Source: a virus. Taken from it: DNA of 46,910 nucleotides. The stretch is from positions 1 to 46,910 of IMG/VR virus record IMGVR_UViG_3300046517_001587; one strand, given 5' to 3'. The translations under genes and the position numbers were made by a program. Below the pieces are notes generated by a model, which was given only the letters and a program-made list of their open reading frames with translations, did no database searches and was not told the DNA's origin. This document shows, piece after piece, positions 1,475 through 46,707 of the stretch (positions are counted from its first letter, which is position 1; every line of letters begins with the position of its first letter).

Positions 1475-3577
1475 CTAGCTCCACTGCGCTTTCGCCAGAT
1501 CGCGCTTAACCGGCGTAGCAAACAACCCTTCCTGCACCTTCATGTAGCGGGTGGCGCGGACAATCTCTTTCATACCCACGCCCACCGCTTCGGCGTCCCG
1601 TTTCTCCTTGGCGTTACTCGCCGTCACCTGAAACATCTGCATCACCGTTTCAATGTCCTGCACATCGAGCAGCTTCTTGCGCACGGCCTCGGCCAGCGCG
1701 CCTATCCAGATCGAACGGTTGTACTCGTTGCTCTCCCACCCGAACGTAACCAGCTCCGTGCGCCCGTGCCGAAATCGCTCGAGATCCTCGCGGCTGTAGA
1801 TCGAAATCCCCGCTGTCAGCAAGTTGTCGATAATGTCGCCCCGCTCATTGGCAATCGGGATTGTGAAACAATCGCCATACCAGCGCGTCAACGCCAACAC
1901 CGACTGCGCCAGCGGTCCCGCATCGAGCCGACACGGTTTACGCATCTTCGCTACCACGCGCGCGGGCGATACCGACTTGGTCTTTTCGTCAAGCGTTCCC
2001 GCCCGAATCACGATCACCGAGTGATGCCCGAACACATCGTCGTGCCACACCGGATCGACCACGCACAGGTAATGCCTGCCGATGATCGGGCGCTCCCACA
2101 CATCGAGCCACGAGTTCTGCGCCGCCAGTTCGTAGGTTACGTCTTTCCCAGCCAACGTCAGCGAACAGCGTTCCGGCGAGCTCGCGCGCGCAATCGATTC
2201 CAACCGGCGCAAACCCACTTCATCCAAGAGCGCAGCCGAAAGCGCCGTGTCGATCGCCATTGCGCCAGCCAAGGAATCAAACCTGTCAGGCGATTCAACC
2301 CCGCGCTTCGCCATATCCTTCTTGGCCTCGTTGCCCAAGAGGCCGTCGCTGGTGAATTTAATGCGCCTGGTCGTGGCCTGCCGGTACAGAATCGGATCGT
2401 TGGGAATAATCTCGCTCTGGTTCTGGATCTTCTTACTGGCCTCGTGCCAGTGTTCGGCGCCCAAGTTCTCGTAAATCGGGTTAACCGGTGGAGCATCGTT
2501 GTTGACCGCGATAATCGGCCAACCCATTTCGTGGAACCGGCTGATAATCGCTATCCCCATCCCCCCAGCGTCCCCGCGCGTTTCACTCGGGAGCAGCCCG
2601 CGCTTGGTAAACTCCATGATGCACCGCCCGATCGAGGACATGACGTTGGCGTCGCGCCAGATCACCTGCTCGTACTTGTTGCCTTCCTTGAACGTAATCA
2701 CGTTCTCGTTGCGGCCGGCCGCGAAATCCACAAATGCCGCTTTACCCCCGTGCACGTACTGCGGCTTGGCTTCCATCGCCAGTTTCATCGCCGCCTTGGG
2801 AACGATAAACATCGTGTCGGCGTCGGCGTCCATGAACTCCCCGAACAACGTGGATTGCGTGAAAGGATGATCGATCCCGTATTCAGCAATCGTCGTGTCG
2901 ATGCGCTCCTTCGAGATCCACGGGCAGTCTTTTAACCCGACTTTCATGCAGGAGAAACCTGTCGGATTCTTCTTCGAGCGTTTGAGGATCGTCTGAGAAT
3001 CGTAGAAGCGTCCTTCGTTGAGTCCCGGCGAACTCACGTAGCCCTGCGCGTTGTACGTGCACCGGTTCCCAGCGTCGAACACCCCGTTCTCGATTGACTT
3101 CGCCTCGTCAAACAACATGATGCACGGCCCATCTATATCGTCGATCTTATGCCAACCCTCCGCTCGACCTGGATCGTCTGTCGTGAACCCCACGATAAAC
3201 CCGCCCTCGGGCGTGTGTACCTCGCGTTCGATGAAGCGCCACCCTTTCTCGTTCTCGAACTTCGAGCGGTGCTGCGTTATGGCAGGCCAACACTGATGGT
3301 CGAGCTGCTTGGAATCGAAACTTACTATTACGAACTTGGGCCGCAGAAACATCGACAAACACCACAACCCCAGCCCCGCCACAATCACTGAGCTTTTCCC
3401 GCTCCCATTCGGTGTCGCCAGACTCGCGCGCACCACACGCCGCGGATCACGGAATTTGTTGAGAAAATCAGCCTGCCACCAGGCAAGCTGCTTACTGCCT
3501 TGCAAGAGGATCCGGTAAACGAATCCCGCCGGCGTCGTAATCAACCGACGCTCCTCCTCGTTTAACTCGGCAAACAC
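1475..3577 (-). CDS. Large terminase subunit (TerL), unusually long
   Basis: This is the motor ATPase and nuclease that packages DNA into procapsids. Walker A is PNGSGKSS (residues 56-63) and Walker B is CIMLFDEA (152-159). The nuclease part appears twice. The first candidate RNase H-like domain has D284 in VDFAAG, D337 in GDAGG and D434 in DRFDSLAGA. The second has D508 in VVDP, E578 in NERGD and D661 in DAEAVGVG. At 700 residues it is longer than the usual 450-600. The start is GTG at 3577; no other start lies between it and an in-frame stop 13 codons upstream. It overlaps the upstream gene by 16 bases. Confidence 0.93.
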   Translation of the reverse strand: MFAELNEEERRLITTPAGFVYRILLQGSKQLAWWQADFLNKFRDPRRVVRASLATPNGSGKSSVIVAGLGLWCLSMFLRPKFVIVSFDSKQLDHQCWPAITQHRSKFENEKGWRFIEREVHTPEGGFIVGFTTDDPGRAEGWHKIDDIDGPCIMLFDEAKSIENGVFDAGNRCTYNAQGYVSSPGLNEGRFYDSQTILKRSKKNPTGFSCMKVGLKDCPWISKERIDTTIAEYGIDHPFTQSTLFGEFMDADADTMFIVPKAAMKLAMEAKPQYVHGGKAAFVDFAAGRNENVITFKEGNKYEQVIWRDANVMSSIGRCIMEFTKRGLLPSETRGDAGGMGIAIISRFHEMGWPIIAVNNDAPPVNPIYENLGAEHWHEASKKIQNQSEIIPNDPILYRQATTRRIKFTSDGLLGNEAKKDMAKRGVESPDRFDSLAGAMAIDTALSAALLDEVGLRRLESIARASSPERCSLTLAGKDVTYELAAQNSWLDVWERPIIGRHYLCVVDPVWHDDVFGHHSVIVIRAGTLDEKTKSVSPARVVAKMRKPCRLDAGPLAQSVLALTRWYGDCFTIPIANERGDIIDNLLTAGISIYSREDLERFRHGRTELVTFGWESNEYNRSIWIGALAEAVRKKLLDVQDIETVMQMFQVTASNAKEKRDAEAVGVGMKEIVRATRYMKVQEGLFATPVKRDLAKAQWS

Positions 3578-4759: not shown

Positions 4760-5023
4760 TTACGTGGAGCCGGGAGCACCCCCAGCCTCCCGCGCCGATG
4801 CGCGCCCCAATCGTTTCCCCAACACAGCCAAAAGCCGCGTCATCAATCCCTCCTGCTCCACTAACAACTCCTGATCCGTGACGTCCAATCCCTTGAACCC
4901 CTCTCCCTTCAAAAATTCACGCAGCTTCCCCAACCGCTCCTCCAACTGGTCCCCCTCAGCCCTCAGTCGCCCACGCCAACCAGCAGGCTTCTTATACGTG
5001 CTCCCATCAGTTACCTCGTTCAT
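4760..5023 (-). CDS. Small charged helical phage protein (crAss001_48-like)
   Basis: The 87-residue product begins MNEVTDGSTYKKP and continues as a charged helical domain (DQLEERLGKLREFL ... ELLVEQEGLMTRLLAVLGKRL). This pattern resembles a widespread small phage family that I recall as crAss001_48-related; the function is unknown. The ATG at 5021-5023 was chosen because a longer upstream extension would read through the tRNA. The first 25 bases nearly duplicate the start of the gene at 5330. The tRNA 3' end is only eight bases upstream. Confidence 0.75.
   Translation of the reverse strand: MNEVTDGSTYKKPAGWRGRLRAEGDQLEERLGKLREFLKGEGFKGLDVTDQELLVEQEGLMTRLLAVLGKRLGRASAREAGGAPGST
4999..5023 (-). 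repeat. 25-bp direct repeat at a gene start, copy 1
   Basis: This segment encodes MNEVTDGS and matches 5306-5330 at 22 of 25 positions, in the same orientation. The two copies bracket a 71-codon gene and the tRNA. Confidence 0.7.
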
Positions 5024-5031
5024 AACAATAA

Positions 5032-5103
5032 TTGCGGGAAAGGGACTCGAACCCTCGACCTTTCGGTTATGAGCCGAACGCGCTGCCTCTGCGCCACCCC
5101 GCG
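5032..5103 (-). tRNA. tRNA-Met (CAT), initiator-like
   Basis: The 72-nt cloverleaf, read on the minus strand, has acceptor CGCGGGG/TCCCGCA, D arm GCGC-AGAGGCA-GCGC, anticodon arm TTCGG-CTCATAA-CCGAA, variable loop AGGTC, T arm GAGGG-TTCGAGT-CCCTT and discriminator A. The anticodon CAT is at 5069-5071. CCA is not encoded. Position 1 is C opposite A72, the unpaired end typical of bacterial initiator tRNA. The anticodon loop and variable loop also match initiator tRNA as I know it from E. coli. The D-stem pair C11-G24 is elongator-like, so identity is not certain. Confidence 0.92.
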
Positions 5104-5114
5104 TCAATTTTCCC

Positions 5115-5330
5115 TTATACCCCGCGCTTCTCCCCGTGCGCCCCTCGCCCAGCACTCGTTATCGTCCCCGCTCCCAAGTGACTCCCCTTCTCCCGAGGAT
5201 CATTCGTCGTCCCTTCCTTCTGGTGCGTCACTATCTTCTCCCCACCACCCTTCGGCCCCGGCGCTTTCGATTGTAACCGCGGATTCTGACTCCCATGCCT
5301 GTGATTGCTTCCATCAGTGACTTCGTTCAT
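5115..5330 (-). CDS. Small hypothetical protein (MNEVTDGS start)
   Basis: The product is 71 residues, rich in G, K, H and P, with the N-terminus MNEVTDGSNHRHGSQNPR. It shares its first eight residues and 22 of its first 25 bases with the gene at 5023. The remainder is different and low in complexity. It ends 11 bases before the tRNA and follows the 5341-5526 gene after ten bases. The family is not recognised. It could also be a partial duplication rather than a functional gene. Confidence 0.5.
   Translation of the reverse strand: MNEVTDGSNHRHGSQNPRLQSKAPGPKGGGEKIVTHQKEGTTNDPREKGSHLGAGTITSAGRGAHGEKRGV
5306..5330 (-). repeat. 25-bp direct repeat at a gene start, copy 2
   Basis: Partner of 4999-5023 (22 of 25 identical). 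It overlaps the start codon of the 71-codon gene. Confidence 0.7.
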
Positions 5331-5930: not shown

Positions 5931-6740
5931 CTAAGTTTCGGGCAATTTCTCGAACTCGGCGTCGATCACCGGCGAATCCAGCAAGAATTGGCGATTGATC
6001 GAGCGCAGCTCGTGGCGCTGATCTTCGGTCAAGACGAACACATCACCGCGAGCGCCGACGTTCACGTTTACGCCAGCGGTCTTGAAGCGATCCGGCTTCC
6101 AAGCGCGGAGAAGCTCGATCTGGAGTTTGCTGTCAAACTTCCGAATGTAGGCCACCGGCACGCCCATATACCACACGGGTTCGATGTCGCCTTCCAAGGA
6201 TCGCTGCCAAACGCGGCTGTGGAGCAGCTCCAACGCATCCTCAATCGCGGCGTCCCATTGCTTTGCGAAGTCGGGATCGTCCTTGCGGTGCAGGTAAGCG
6301 CATCCACGCGATACCTTGGCGTGACGCGAGGAAAGAAGGACGGAGTTTGTCATGGCCAAGGCCGCAAGGAAGCGAGGTCGCCAGTGGAGCGCGTGGCGAG
6401 CGTACGCGCGTTGCTCAGTGTCCAAGTGATGCAAACGCGATTCGAGGAAGGGCGTAACGAGTTTCCATTTTTCGCTTGAGGCGACCATGAACCGCTTGGC
6501 ATGATTGATAGCGATACGTTGCGCGTTGCGAACACCGGAAGGGCCAGCGGCGATGGCGGCTTCGAGGGATTGAGTATTGAAACCGATTTCAGGTGGTGGC
6601 GCGGGTTCGATGGAATCGCGGAAATCTGCTTTGGCGGCTGGGGAGCGTTTCGCTGGGTTTTTGAAGTTATCGAGCGTTGATTTGCCCTCGTGAACTTCGG
6701 TTGAATCCGCCTGGTTTTTCGCGTTCGACTTGTTAGGCAT
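5931..6740 (-). CDS. Small terminase subunit (TerS)
   Basis: This is the DNA-recognition partner of TerL. About 80 disordered N-terminal residues are followed by a domain with the pattern FLAALAMTNSVLLSSRHAKV (helix-turn-helix), a CAYLHRKDDPDFAKQWDAAI helix, and EPVWYMGVPVAYIRKFDSKL leading to RAWKPDRFK. This is the usual terminase small-subunit layout (allergic-to-gap HTH, then EPVFYKG-like strand, then R-rich tail). I use the ATG at 6738-6740; an ATG at 6776 and a GTG at 6854 are in frame, and none has a good ribosome binding site. TerL is 2.3 kb further downstream. Confidence 0.85.
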   Translation of the reverse strand: MPNKSNAKNQADSTEVHEGKSTLDNFKNPAKRSPAAKADFRDSIEPAPPPEIGFNTQSLEAAIAAGPSGVRNAQRIAINHAKRFMVASSEKWKLVTPFLESRLHHLDTEQRAYARHALHWRPRFLAALAMTNSVLLSSRHAKVSRGCAYLHRKDDPDFAKQWDAAIEDALELLHSRVWQRSLEGDIEPVWYMGVPVAYIRKFDSKLQIELLRAWKPDRFKTAGVNVNVGARGDVFVLTEDQRHELRSINRQFLLDSPVIDAEFEKLPET

Positions 6741-6815
6741 CGCTGGCGTATTCGTTTGTGACCAATGACGCTTCATACCAAGAAATTGGTTAGGGGGGAA
6801 GCATAAAATTTGGTG

Positions 6816-6844
6816 TTGACTGTCGGGATAAGTAATGGCATAAG
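6816..6844 (+). promoter_or_regulatory. Promoter of the plus-strand operon (TTGACT-N17-CATAAG)
   Basis: The -35 is TTGACT at 6816-6821 and the -10 is CATAAG at 6839-6844, with a 17-base spacer. The predicted start is near 6851, just before a leader hairpin and the first plus-strand gene. Its layout matches the promoter at 10377. Confidence 0.6.
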
Positions 6845-6853
6845 GGGAATACA

Positions 6854-6869
6854 CGAGGCGTCCACCTCG
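6854..6869 (+). promoter_or_regulatory. Leader hairpin 1
   Basis: CGAGGCGTCCACCTCG forms a 5-bp stem with an inner G-C pair and sits about three bases after the predicted transcription start. It shares GGYGTCCACC with the hairpin at 10416 and, like it, is followed by an A-rich AGAAAGG ribosome binding site. It could be an mRNA-stabilising 5' hairpin or a protein-binding palindrome. Confidence 0.5.
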
Positions 6870-45072: not shown

Positions 45073-46707
45073 TTAGGTGACTGTCGGGAATCCGTCAGCC
45101 GGATAAGCGTGCTCGATCACGACGAAGTTGGGATATTTGCTATCCGCCCTCTGTGTCGCACAACTGCCGAACACGGTTTCCACACCGATACCGTGATCCA
45201 TGCCGTGGTTGCGGTGTTCCTCGGTGCGCGCGGCGCGAGCGTTGCGTCCCTTGAGTGAACCGTAACCGCAGATGCCAGCCATTTCGCCAAGACCGAGGGT
45301 GTAACAGAACGGAACTCCGAAGCTGTTGACCTCGATAACGAGCGAACCTACAGGGTGCGAATCGGTGAGATTCGCCAATAGCCACGGGGCTACGTTCCAA
45401 GTGATTCCAGAACCAGGGAAGGTCGTGACTGCGATACCAGCAGCAGCCGCGCGCAGCCTGCTCGCCATTGTGAGCTTGTTGCCGTTGTTCACCGTGTAGG
45501 TGTAGAGGCCGATCTTGCCGGCGTTAGCGCCGGTCAGATTGTAAATCGCCACGTAGCGCACGGTCGTTGTGTCGGCGGCAACCGTATTCCCATTGGTGTA
45601 CGTCCACGGGGCATTACTGAATGCCTCGAAGTAGTTGGGAGCAGGTACCAGCGCCGCGCCTGTCGCGTCACCACCACCGGTGATGTCGTAGGCGTTGTTG
45701 TCGGCAGGGATCGCCGCACCCAAGAAGGCGCGCGGTTGAATCACTGACCCGACTGGACCGTAGGCTTCGTGATCTCGGACGTACCAGCGGTAAATACCGT
45801 GGCCGTTCCAATCCACAAAATCCCCTCGGAAGATCGGGTTGCCTTTGCCGCGGTTCTCCGCGTACTGCAACGCCTGCAAGTAGGCCGATTCACTTCCAAG
45901 CGGAGCGAACGCAAACTGCGTCCCGAAGAACAGGAACTGCTCAACGAAACCGCCCGCGTCGTTCTTGATGGTCCCAACGGGTTTACCGCCGAGTCCGGAG
46001 AGAACCAGCCCGCTCTTGGTGATCGTGTTGGTGCTCATTACGTCAGCCGATTTGAGCAGGTCGCGCCCACCCTTGAAATTCGGGCGAACCATGTTGATGC
46101 CGCTAGTCTTGGCGGCTTGAATCAGCCCCATCATCAGATCCTCGGAGATTTTCCGGCCAAGTCGCGCGCGAAGCAGCTTGTTGGACAGGTTATCCCACTG
46201 GGAGCCGACTACGGTTTCCTCTTGGGCAACGTCAGTGATACCGATACCGAACCATTGGCGCCCGATCTTGCACGGGAAGCCGCCGATGCGGAGTTTTTCT
46301 TCGTTGCCGCTTCGGTCGCCTTCACCCTGCGCACCAGGCCCACCCAACGGAGCGACTGTCGGAATGTTGATGGTGTTGCCATCGACCTTCGATAGATCGT
46401 CGTATTGGATGAACGGTTTGCTCGAGCCGGGACCACCGATCATTTCGTCACTAAACACATTGGCTTGCTCGGCGCCCATAAGGATGCGTTTAACCCAAAG
46501 CTCCTCTGCGGCCTTGGGGTTCATCGCTACCTCGTTGGCGTACGTCAGGACGTTAATCTTGTTGTACGACACGCCGAGTTGCTGTGTCAGCAACGGGTTG
46601 ACCAGCCACACCGCGAAAAATGCTCCGATACTTTGGGTAGCGAGCAAGACCGTCAGCGCAGTGGTCAGGTGAAGCAAGGCAATGGCCTTGCGATATTGAA
46701 ACTTCAT
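45073..46707 (-). CDS. Major capsid protein (N4-gp56/DUF4043 type)
   Basis: Key segments match this capsid family: AAEELWVKRILMGAEQANVF, KVDGNTINIPTVAPLGGPG, QGEGDRSGNEEKL and KIGRQWFGIGITDVAQEE, then LSNKLLRARLGRKISEDLMM. It forms the icosahedral shell. ATG at 46707 has a strong AGGAGG (46714-46719), giving 544 residues with an N-terminal hydrophobic stretch (AIALLHLTTALTVLLATQSI and GAFFAVWLV). A second in-frame ATG at 46524 with GAGG before it would start exactly at the capsid domain (MNPKAAEELW). Confidence 0.85.
   Translation of the reverse strand: MKFQYRKAIALLHLTTALTVLLATQSIGAFFAVWLVNPLLTQQLGVSYNKINVLTYANEVAMNPKAAEELWVKRILMGAEQANVFSDEMIGGPGSSKPFIQYDDLSKVDGNTINIPTVAPLGGPGAQGEGDRSGNEEKLRIGGFPCKIGRQWFGIGITDVAQEETVVGSQWDNLSNKLLRARLGRKISEDLMMGLIQAAKTSGINMVRPNFKGGRDLLKSADVMSTNTITKSGLVLSGLGGKPVGTIKNDAGGFVEQFLFFGTQFAFAPLGSESAYLQALQYAENRGKGNPIFRGDFVDWNGHGIYRWYVRDHEAYGPVGSVIQPRAFLGAAIPADNNAYDITGGGDATGAALVPAPNYFEAFSNAPWTYTNGNTVAADTTTVRYVAIYNLTGANAGKIGLYTYTVNNGNKLTMASRLRAAAAGIAVTTFPGSGITWNVAPWLLANLTDSHPVGSLVIEVNSFGVPFCYTLGLGEMAGICGYGSLKGRNARAARTEEHRNHGMDHGIGVETVFGSCATQRADSKYPNFVVIEHAYPADGFPTVT

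Follow-up and report, generated by a model that had tools for sequence, protein, structure and literature searches.

The phage genome studied here, a single 46.9-kb IMG/VR virus record analysed over its whole length of 46,910 bases (the window), carries only one tRNA gene detected by ARAGORN, a tRNA-Met(CAT) at positions 5032-5103 on the minus strand. This tRNA is probably a phage-encoded initiator of a virus-specific type, which joins the acceptor end of tRNA-fMet to a D-stem with the C11-G24 pair of elongators and to an anticodon stem that is relaxed. By its defining features (the pairs 11:24 and 29:41) it is not a canonical initiator, yet most likely it works like one. Explanations for the presence of tRNAs in phages mostly rest on elongation codons, and codon compensation cannot explain the case of a sole tRNA that is of the initiator type. 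With two bacterial hallmarks altered, this virus-only form is a natural means to test which initiator elements (11:24, 29:41) matter, and also whether tRNA-fMet is acted on by host defences. Annotation by the anticodon alone, as "tRNA-Met", conceals such phage initiator tRNAs.

The identification of the gene is not in question. RF00005 (tRNA) is the sole Rfam match over threshold in the window, and its score of 61 bits (gathering score 29, E 7e-11) lies far above chance. The initial annotation of this DNA had proposed a search for the same tRNA in related phages, and an identical copy was indeed found in three further metagenome contigs (L079, L081 and L138), whose surrounding DNA is nearly identical; together with the Rfam and ARAGORN scores, these contigs rule out an assembly artefact or a chance match. 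In Sprinzl numbering the tRNA reads CGCGGGG TG GCGC AGAGGCA GCGC G TTCGG CTCATAA CCGAA AGGTC GAGGG TTCGAGT CCCTT TCCCGCA A, and its predicted fold is a cloverleaf with position 1 unpaired. On the minus strand, C1 lies at 5103, A72 at 5033 and A73 at 5032; the D-arm spans 5080-5094, with the GCGC of positions 10-13 at 5091-5094, that of positions 22-25 at 5080-5083 and the C11-G24 pair at 5093 and 5081; the anticodon arm TTCGG-CTCATAA-CCGAA occupies 5061-5077, with the CAT anticodon, called by ARAGORN and read from the sequence, at 5069-5071. TTA directly follows A73, so the gene does not encode CCA.

Compared with E. coli-type tRNA-fMet, the tRNA has in common the CAT anticodon in its CTCATAA loop, the acceptor end C1·A72, G2-C71, C3-G70, G4-C69 and A73, and the pairs G30-C40 and G31-C39. 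It differs by C11-G24 in place of A11-U24, by C29-G41 in place of G29-C41, by a short D-loop of 7 nt and by the missing CCA. The C1-A72 mismatch and the C11-G24 pair that the initial annotation had read from the letters are thus both there. It had also reported a lack of three consecutive G-C pairs, which was a misreading: at 29-31/39-41 (CGG/CCG) all three are present, the sole difference from the canonical GGG/CCC being the reversed orientation of the first. Nor is the combination of CTCATAA with AGGTC, taken at that time as a match to tRNA-fMet, diagnostic, since most of the fetched bacterial elongator-Met and Ile2 tRNAs carry CTCATAA, with AGGTC, TGGTC or GGGTC as variable loop.

A published census of bacterial CAT tRNAs gives a measure of how contradictory these features are (PMC5143459). 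C·A at 1:72 occurs in 3392 initiators and 3 elongators (3392/3395), and 99.5% of the elongators have a Watson-Crick or G·U pair there. At 11:24, 4430 of 4438 initiators have A:U and only 3 of 4438 have C:G, and CGG/CCG at 29-31/39-41 is found in 1843 elongators and in none of the 4438 initiators. Our tRNA therefore has the CAU anticodon, the unpaired 1-72 (usually C·A) and the formylation helper pairs G2-C71 and C3-G70 of an initiator, and lacks A11:U24 as well as GGG/CCC (or AGG/CCU) at 29-31/39-41; conversely, it has the pyrimidine 11-purine 24 pair of elongator tRNA-Met and tRNA-Ile2 and lacks their paired 1-72. With an initiator acceptor end and elongator states at C11-G24 and CGG/CCG, it is a hybrid.

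A position-specific classifier was built from fetched bacterial tRNAs, the sets being small (36 fMet, 8 Met and 9 Ile2) and every member being placed correctly when left out. It assigned the tRNA to fMet (scores of 56 for this class, 18 for Ile2 and -12 for elongator Met), and not to the elongator Met or Ile2 class, an outcome which the initial annotation had named as one that would speak against its reading. The margin of 38 lies far under the 74-106 of ordinary initiators, and when the acceptor stem was left out the scores became 32 for fMet, 23 for Ile2 and -2 for Met, which is a small margin over Ile2. The initiator reading proposed from the letters thus stands on C1·A72, on the classifier and on the open 1-72 of the relatives described below, while C11:G24 and CGG/CCG weigh more heavily against it than had been thought. 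A further proposal, that the tRNA biases initiation toward GTG and TTG, is unsupported: the anticodon and its loop are the standard CAT and CTCATAA, and the start codons guessed by a crude script (19 ATG, 8 GTG and 5 TTG in the window) are too rough to inform on such a bias.

The same form is found in many other viruses. An exact pattern (GCGGGG acceptor, CAT and a GCGC/GCGC D-stem) matched at least 115 viral contigs; in a set of about 85,000 species genomes of bacteria and archaea it matched 23 contigs. For 20 of these 23 genome contigs one long neighbouring ORF was checked: it had a phage-family match in 12 cases, with portal, head protease, major head, tape measure and phage primase genes among them, and no match in 8. 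Among the matches listed there were 97 distinct viral tRNAs of the form, of which 82% are mismatched at 1-72, 13% have A-U there, 3% G·U and 1% G-C, whereas of 364 further tRNAs encoded at these viral loci 3% have a mismatch and 70% G-C or C-G; because related tRNAs are not independent, these viral percentages are descriptive only. The opening is confined to the end of the stem, pairs 2-71 to 7-66 remaining paired in the listed tRNAs, and several kinds of mismatch produce it (C·A in 32, A·A in 14, A·C and U·U in 10 each and U·C in 6 of those listed). In the close group of our tRNA, which has the anticodon stem TTCGG/CCGAA, 1-72 switches among C·A, A·A and A·C: the tRNAs of contigs L146 (C·A) and L113 (A·A) differ solely at position 1, and those of L087 and L103 have A·C. 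Still among the matches listed, A73 is present in 83 of the 97 and G30-C40 in 95%, the classifier assigns 95 of the 97 to fMet, and CCA is encoded by 70 of them, unlike in the window, a point that counts against the initiator reading. No second tRNA was seen within the fetched stretch at 80 of the 97 listed loci, which argues against codon compensation. Our tRNA belongs with this class through its GCGC/GCGC D-stem, its CAT anticodon and a 1-72 that is not a strong pair, and the tRNAs closest to it come from viruses (54 of 60 aligned positions, against 50 of 60 for the closest bacterial one). CAT tRNAs of three viral contigs (L386, L396 and L402) present another initiator-like end: their acceptor GTCGGAG/CTCCGCA leaves two positions open, 1-72 as G·A and 2-71 as U·C.

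As the acceptor stem was prescribed by that first pattern, we ran two more scans in which only the D-stem and the anticodon loop were prescribed. The 96 distinct CAT tRNAs listed with the GCGC D-stem had a 1-72 mismatch in 71 cases, A-U in 18, G-C in 5 and G·U in 2, and the 95 distinct ones listed with the elongator D-stem GCTC had G-C in 69, G·U in 9, A-U in 8 and a mismatch in 9; this difference (71/96 versus 9/95 mismatched) indicates that the GCGC D-stem marks initiator-type tRNAs in viruses. A viral sample blind to the D-stem contained, among the matches listed, 79 CAT tRNAs of the GCGGG type, 65 with A11-U24 and 8 with C11-G24, the A11 share being probably inflated as IMG/VR contigs carry host sequence at prophage edges. 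Judged by these counts, the C11-G24 form is a minority among the apparent viral initiators, yet it is far commoner there than in cells. The anticodon loop also varies: the U32/C38 loop TTCATAC occurs in many viral C11-G24 tRNAs (L046, L015, L001 and others) and never in the fetched bacterial A11-U24 initiators. A striking repetition was seen in a 735-kb uncultured phage (LR756501.1, L010), where positions 109-373 hold three CAT tRNAs with initiator-type starts in tandem within about 270 bases, two of them clearly U1·U72 and C1·A72, with A11-U24.

In sampled bacteria, the acceptor-blind GCGC pattern was present in 1 of 200 Pseudomonadota genomes, which was the seed genome and had it within a tRNA cluster, and in none of 99 Bacteroidota genomes. 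With the acceptor pattern, matches were obtained in 80 of the 150 Pseudomonadota genomes sampled, 44 of the 51 from Actinomycetota and 19 of the 51 from Bacteroidota, and all these matches have A11-U24, save the seeds and three Bacteroidota genomes; the latter have an elongator-type GCTC tRNA, which in the one fetched has G1·U72. An Achromobacter anxifer contig (L334, G004:C5:20000-30000) holds about 18 tRNA-like genes packed closely together, with the look of a mobile tRNA array, where two of three CAT tRNAs have a GCGC-type 5' D-stem half and a 1-72 mismatch (G·A and C·A).

These data bear on three other explanations. The tRNA could be an elongator (Met, or Ile2, which has lysidine at C34 made by TilS and is charged with Ile) whose 1-72 pair was opened by drift and which either elongates or does nothing. 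Both C11-G24, which it shares with elongator tRNA-Met and tRNA-Ile2, and CGG/CCG, which is common in them, are states usual for elongators; on these two features alone one would assign Met or Ile2, and Ile2 is the classifier's second-best class. We nevertheless regard drift as unlikely, given that C·A is found in only 3 of 5479 bacterial elongator CAT tRNAs (PMC5143459), that the viral relatives keep a mismatch while its type changes, which drift leaves unexplained, and that the body stems are intact, with the GCGGGG/TCCCGC acceptor and G26 being initiator-like. Alternatively, the phage could have picked up an ordinary host initiator of no special form, as typical bacterial tRNA-fMet has the same acceptor and the same loop and phages do carry plain A11-U24 copies. 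This is very improbable: the nearest tRNAs are viral, and C11-G24 initiators are native to no bacterial lineage sampled, the samples perhaps not including the phage's host.

The last explanation holds that the tRNA is a decoy or spare substrate, which draws or survives toxins of the VapC type directed at tRNA-fMet and does not add to normal initiation. VapC cleaves tRNA-fMet between A38 and C39 (PMC4105405), phage tRNAs can defeat tRNA-cutting defences (PMC11555353; PMC10264068), and among the matches listed 33 of 105 viral C11-G24 tRNAs depart from C/A at positions 32/38, against 8 of 101 A11-U24 ones, the two sets coming from slightly different sampling patterns. Our tRNA, however, retains A38, C39 and the unmodified CTCATAA loop, and according to one survey phages tend not to encode tRNA-fMet where VapC cuts (PMC10264068), so that a pure decoy appears very unlikely.

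We therefore return to a virus-specific initiator. The 1-72 mismatch is the main determinant of formylation and blocks both use in the A site and peptidyl-tRNA hydrolase (PMC7949028; PMC11231383), and formylation is helped by 2:71, 3:70 and 11:24 (PMC7949028), of which our tRNA has the first two. Elongator tRNAs given the mismatch and the three G:C pairs can initiate (PMC7949028; PMC11231383). We infer from these elements that the tRNA would be charged, formylated and used for initiation along the following path. It would be co-transcribed with the terminase genes and excised by RNase P, and a host enzyme would add CCA; host MetRS would charge it with methionine through the CAU anticodon and A73; the host methionyl-tRNA formyltransferase would act on the open 1-72 end and G2-C71/C3-G70, perhaps more weakly for want of A11-U24; and IF2 would then place the formylated tRNA in the 30S P site. 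Its purpose is a matter of speculation: it could supply initiator late in infection, when the host pool may be short or hit by toxins directed at tRNA-fMet, and the altered D and anticodon stems would make it a poorer copy of the target of such host toxins. A role in restoring initiator supply, maybe against defences targeting tRNA-fMet, is plausible. It is possible, if rather doubtful, that phages have evolved a separate initiator class, often the sole tRNA seen, in which the open 1-72 was reinvented with many mismatches and the hallmarks at 11:24 and 29:41 were given up as the anticodon loop changed alongside, which would allow phage translation to start when defence toxins cut or modify the host tRNA-fMet.

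Phage-encoded tRNA-fMet as such is already known, and the virus-specific C11-G24 form is, as far as we found, the new part. Initiator tRNA genes have been reported in T5 and cyanophages (PMC4810235) and in huge phages (PMC10747093), and phage database records annotated tRNA-fMet exist; the passages concerned name the tRNAs without variants at 11:24 or in the anticodon stem, and the tRNA of the window differs in being the sole one of its record. Our literature search, largely of openly available papers, found no description of a virus-specific C11-G24 initiator form. Two phages have comparable genes: trnM(CAT) of EBPR siphovirus 2 (JF412297) and a CAT tRNA left without annotation in Bordetella phage PHB04 (MF663786) combine C1·A72 with the GCGC/GCGC D-stem, as in the window. 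The first also shares the TTCGG/CCGAA anticodon stem but has a TTCATAC loop, and both encode CCA and have other tRNAs alongside, neither of which applies to the window.

The tRNA is located between the small and large terminase genes, in a genome made up largely of minus-strand phage genes. Upstream of it and in the same orientation lies the small subunit gene (5931-6854, minus strand; PHROG 4044, E 4e-22), and downstream the large subunit gene (1475-3577, minus strand), which by tblastn matches annotated Akkermansia phage TerL with 32-34% identity (E down to 5e-56). These best TerL matches are a weak hint of a Verrucomicrobiota host. A major head protein (45073-46707), helicases, a replication initiator and a methyltransferase are also encoded in the window. 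A fuller initiation package was considered and rejected, as neither a formyltransferase nor a peptide deformylase was detectable among the phage genes of the window, which means that the phage would rely on those of its host. A remnant of a prophage attachment site was rejected too, with no integrase among the subset of ORFs profiled and the tRNA being whole, with unusual stems of its own. As distant relatives of the phage, beyond near-identical contigs, we found only one with a related small terminase (L353, 31% identity), and its fetched stretch contains no tRNA.

Immediately downstream of the tRNA is a small gene of the crAss001_48 family (4760-5023, minus strand; Pfam PF21825, E 3e-14), and immediately upstream a small ORF (5115-5330, minus strand) which repeats the start MNEVTDGS of that downstream gene. 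The pattern ATGAACGARGTNACTGATGG occurs only at 5311-5330 and 5004-5023 on the minus strand (0.01 expected by chance), and the shared start of the two flanking genes could stem from a duplication which either introduced the tRNA or lies around it. The large terminase subunit is 700 aa long and extends about 260 residues past the match to known TerL, which ends near residue 440. Finally, an initiator-type tRNA adjoins a terminase gene in four phage records, next to TerL in L003, L006 and L009 and between both subunits in the window.
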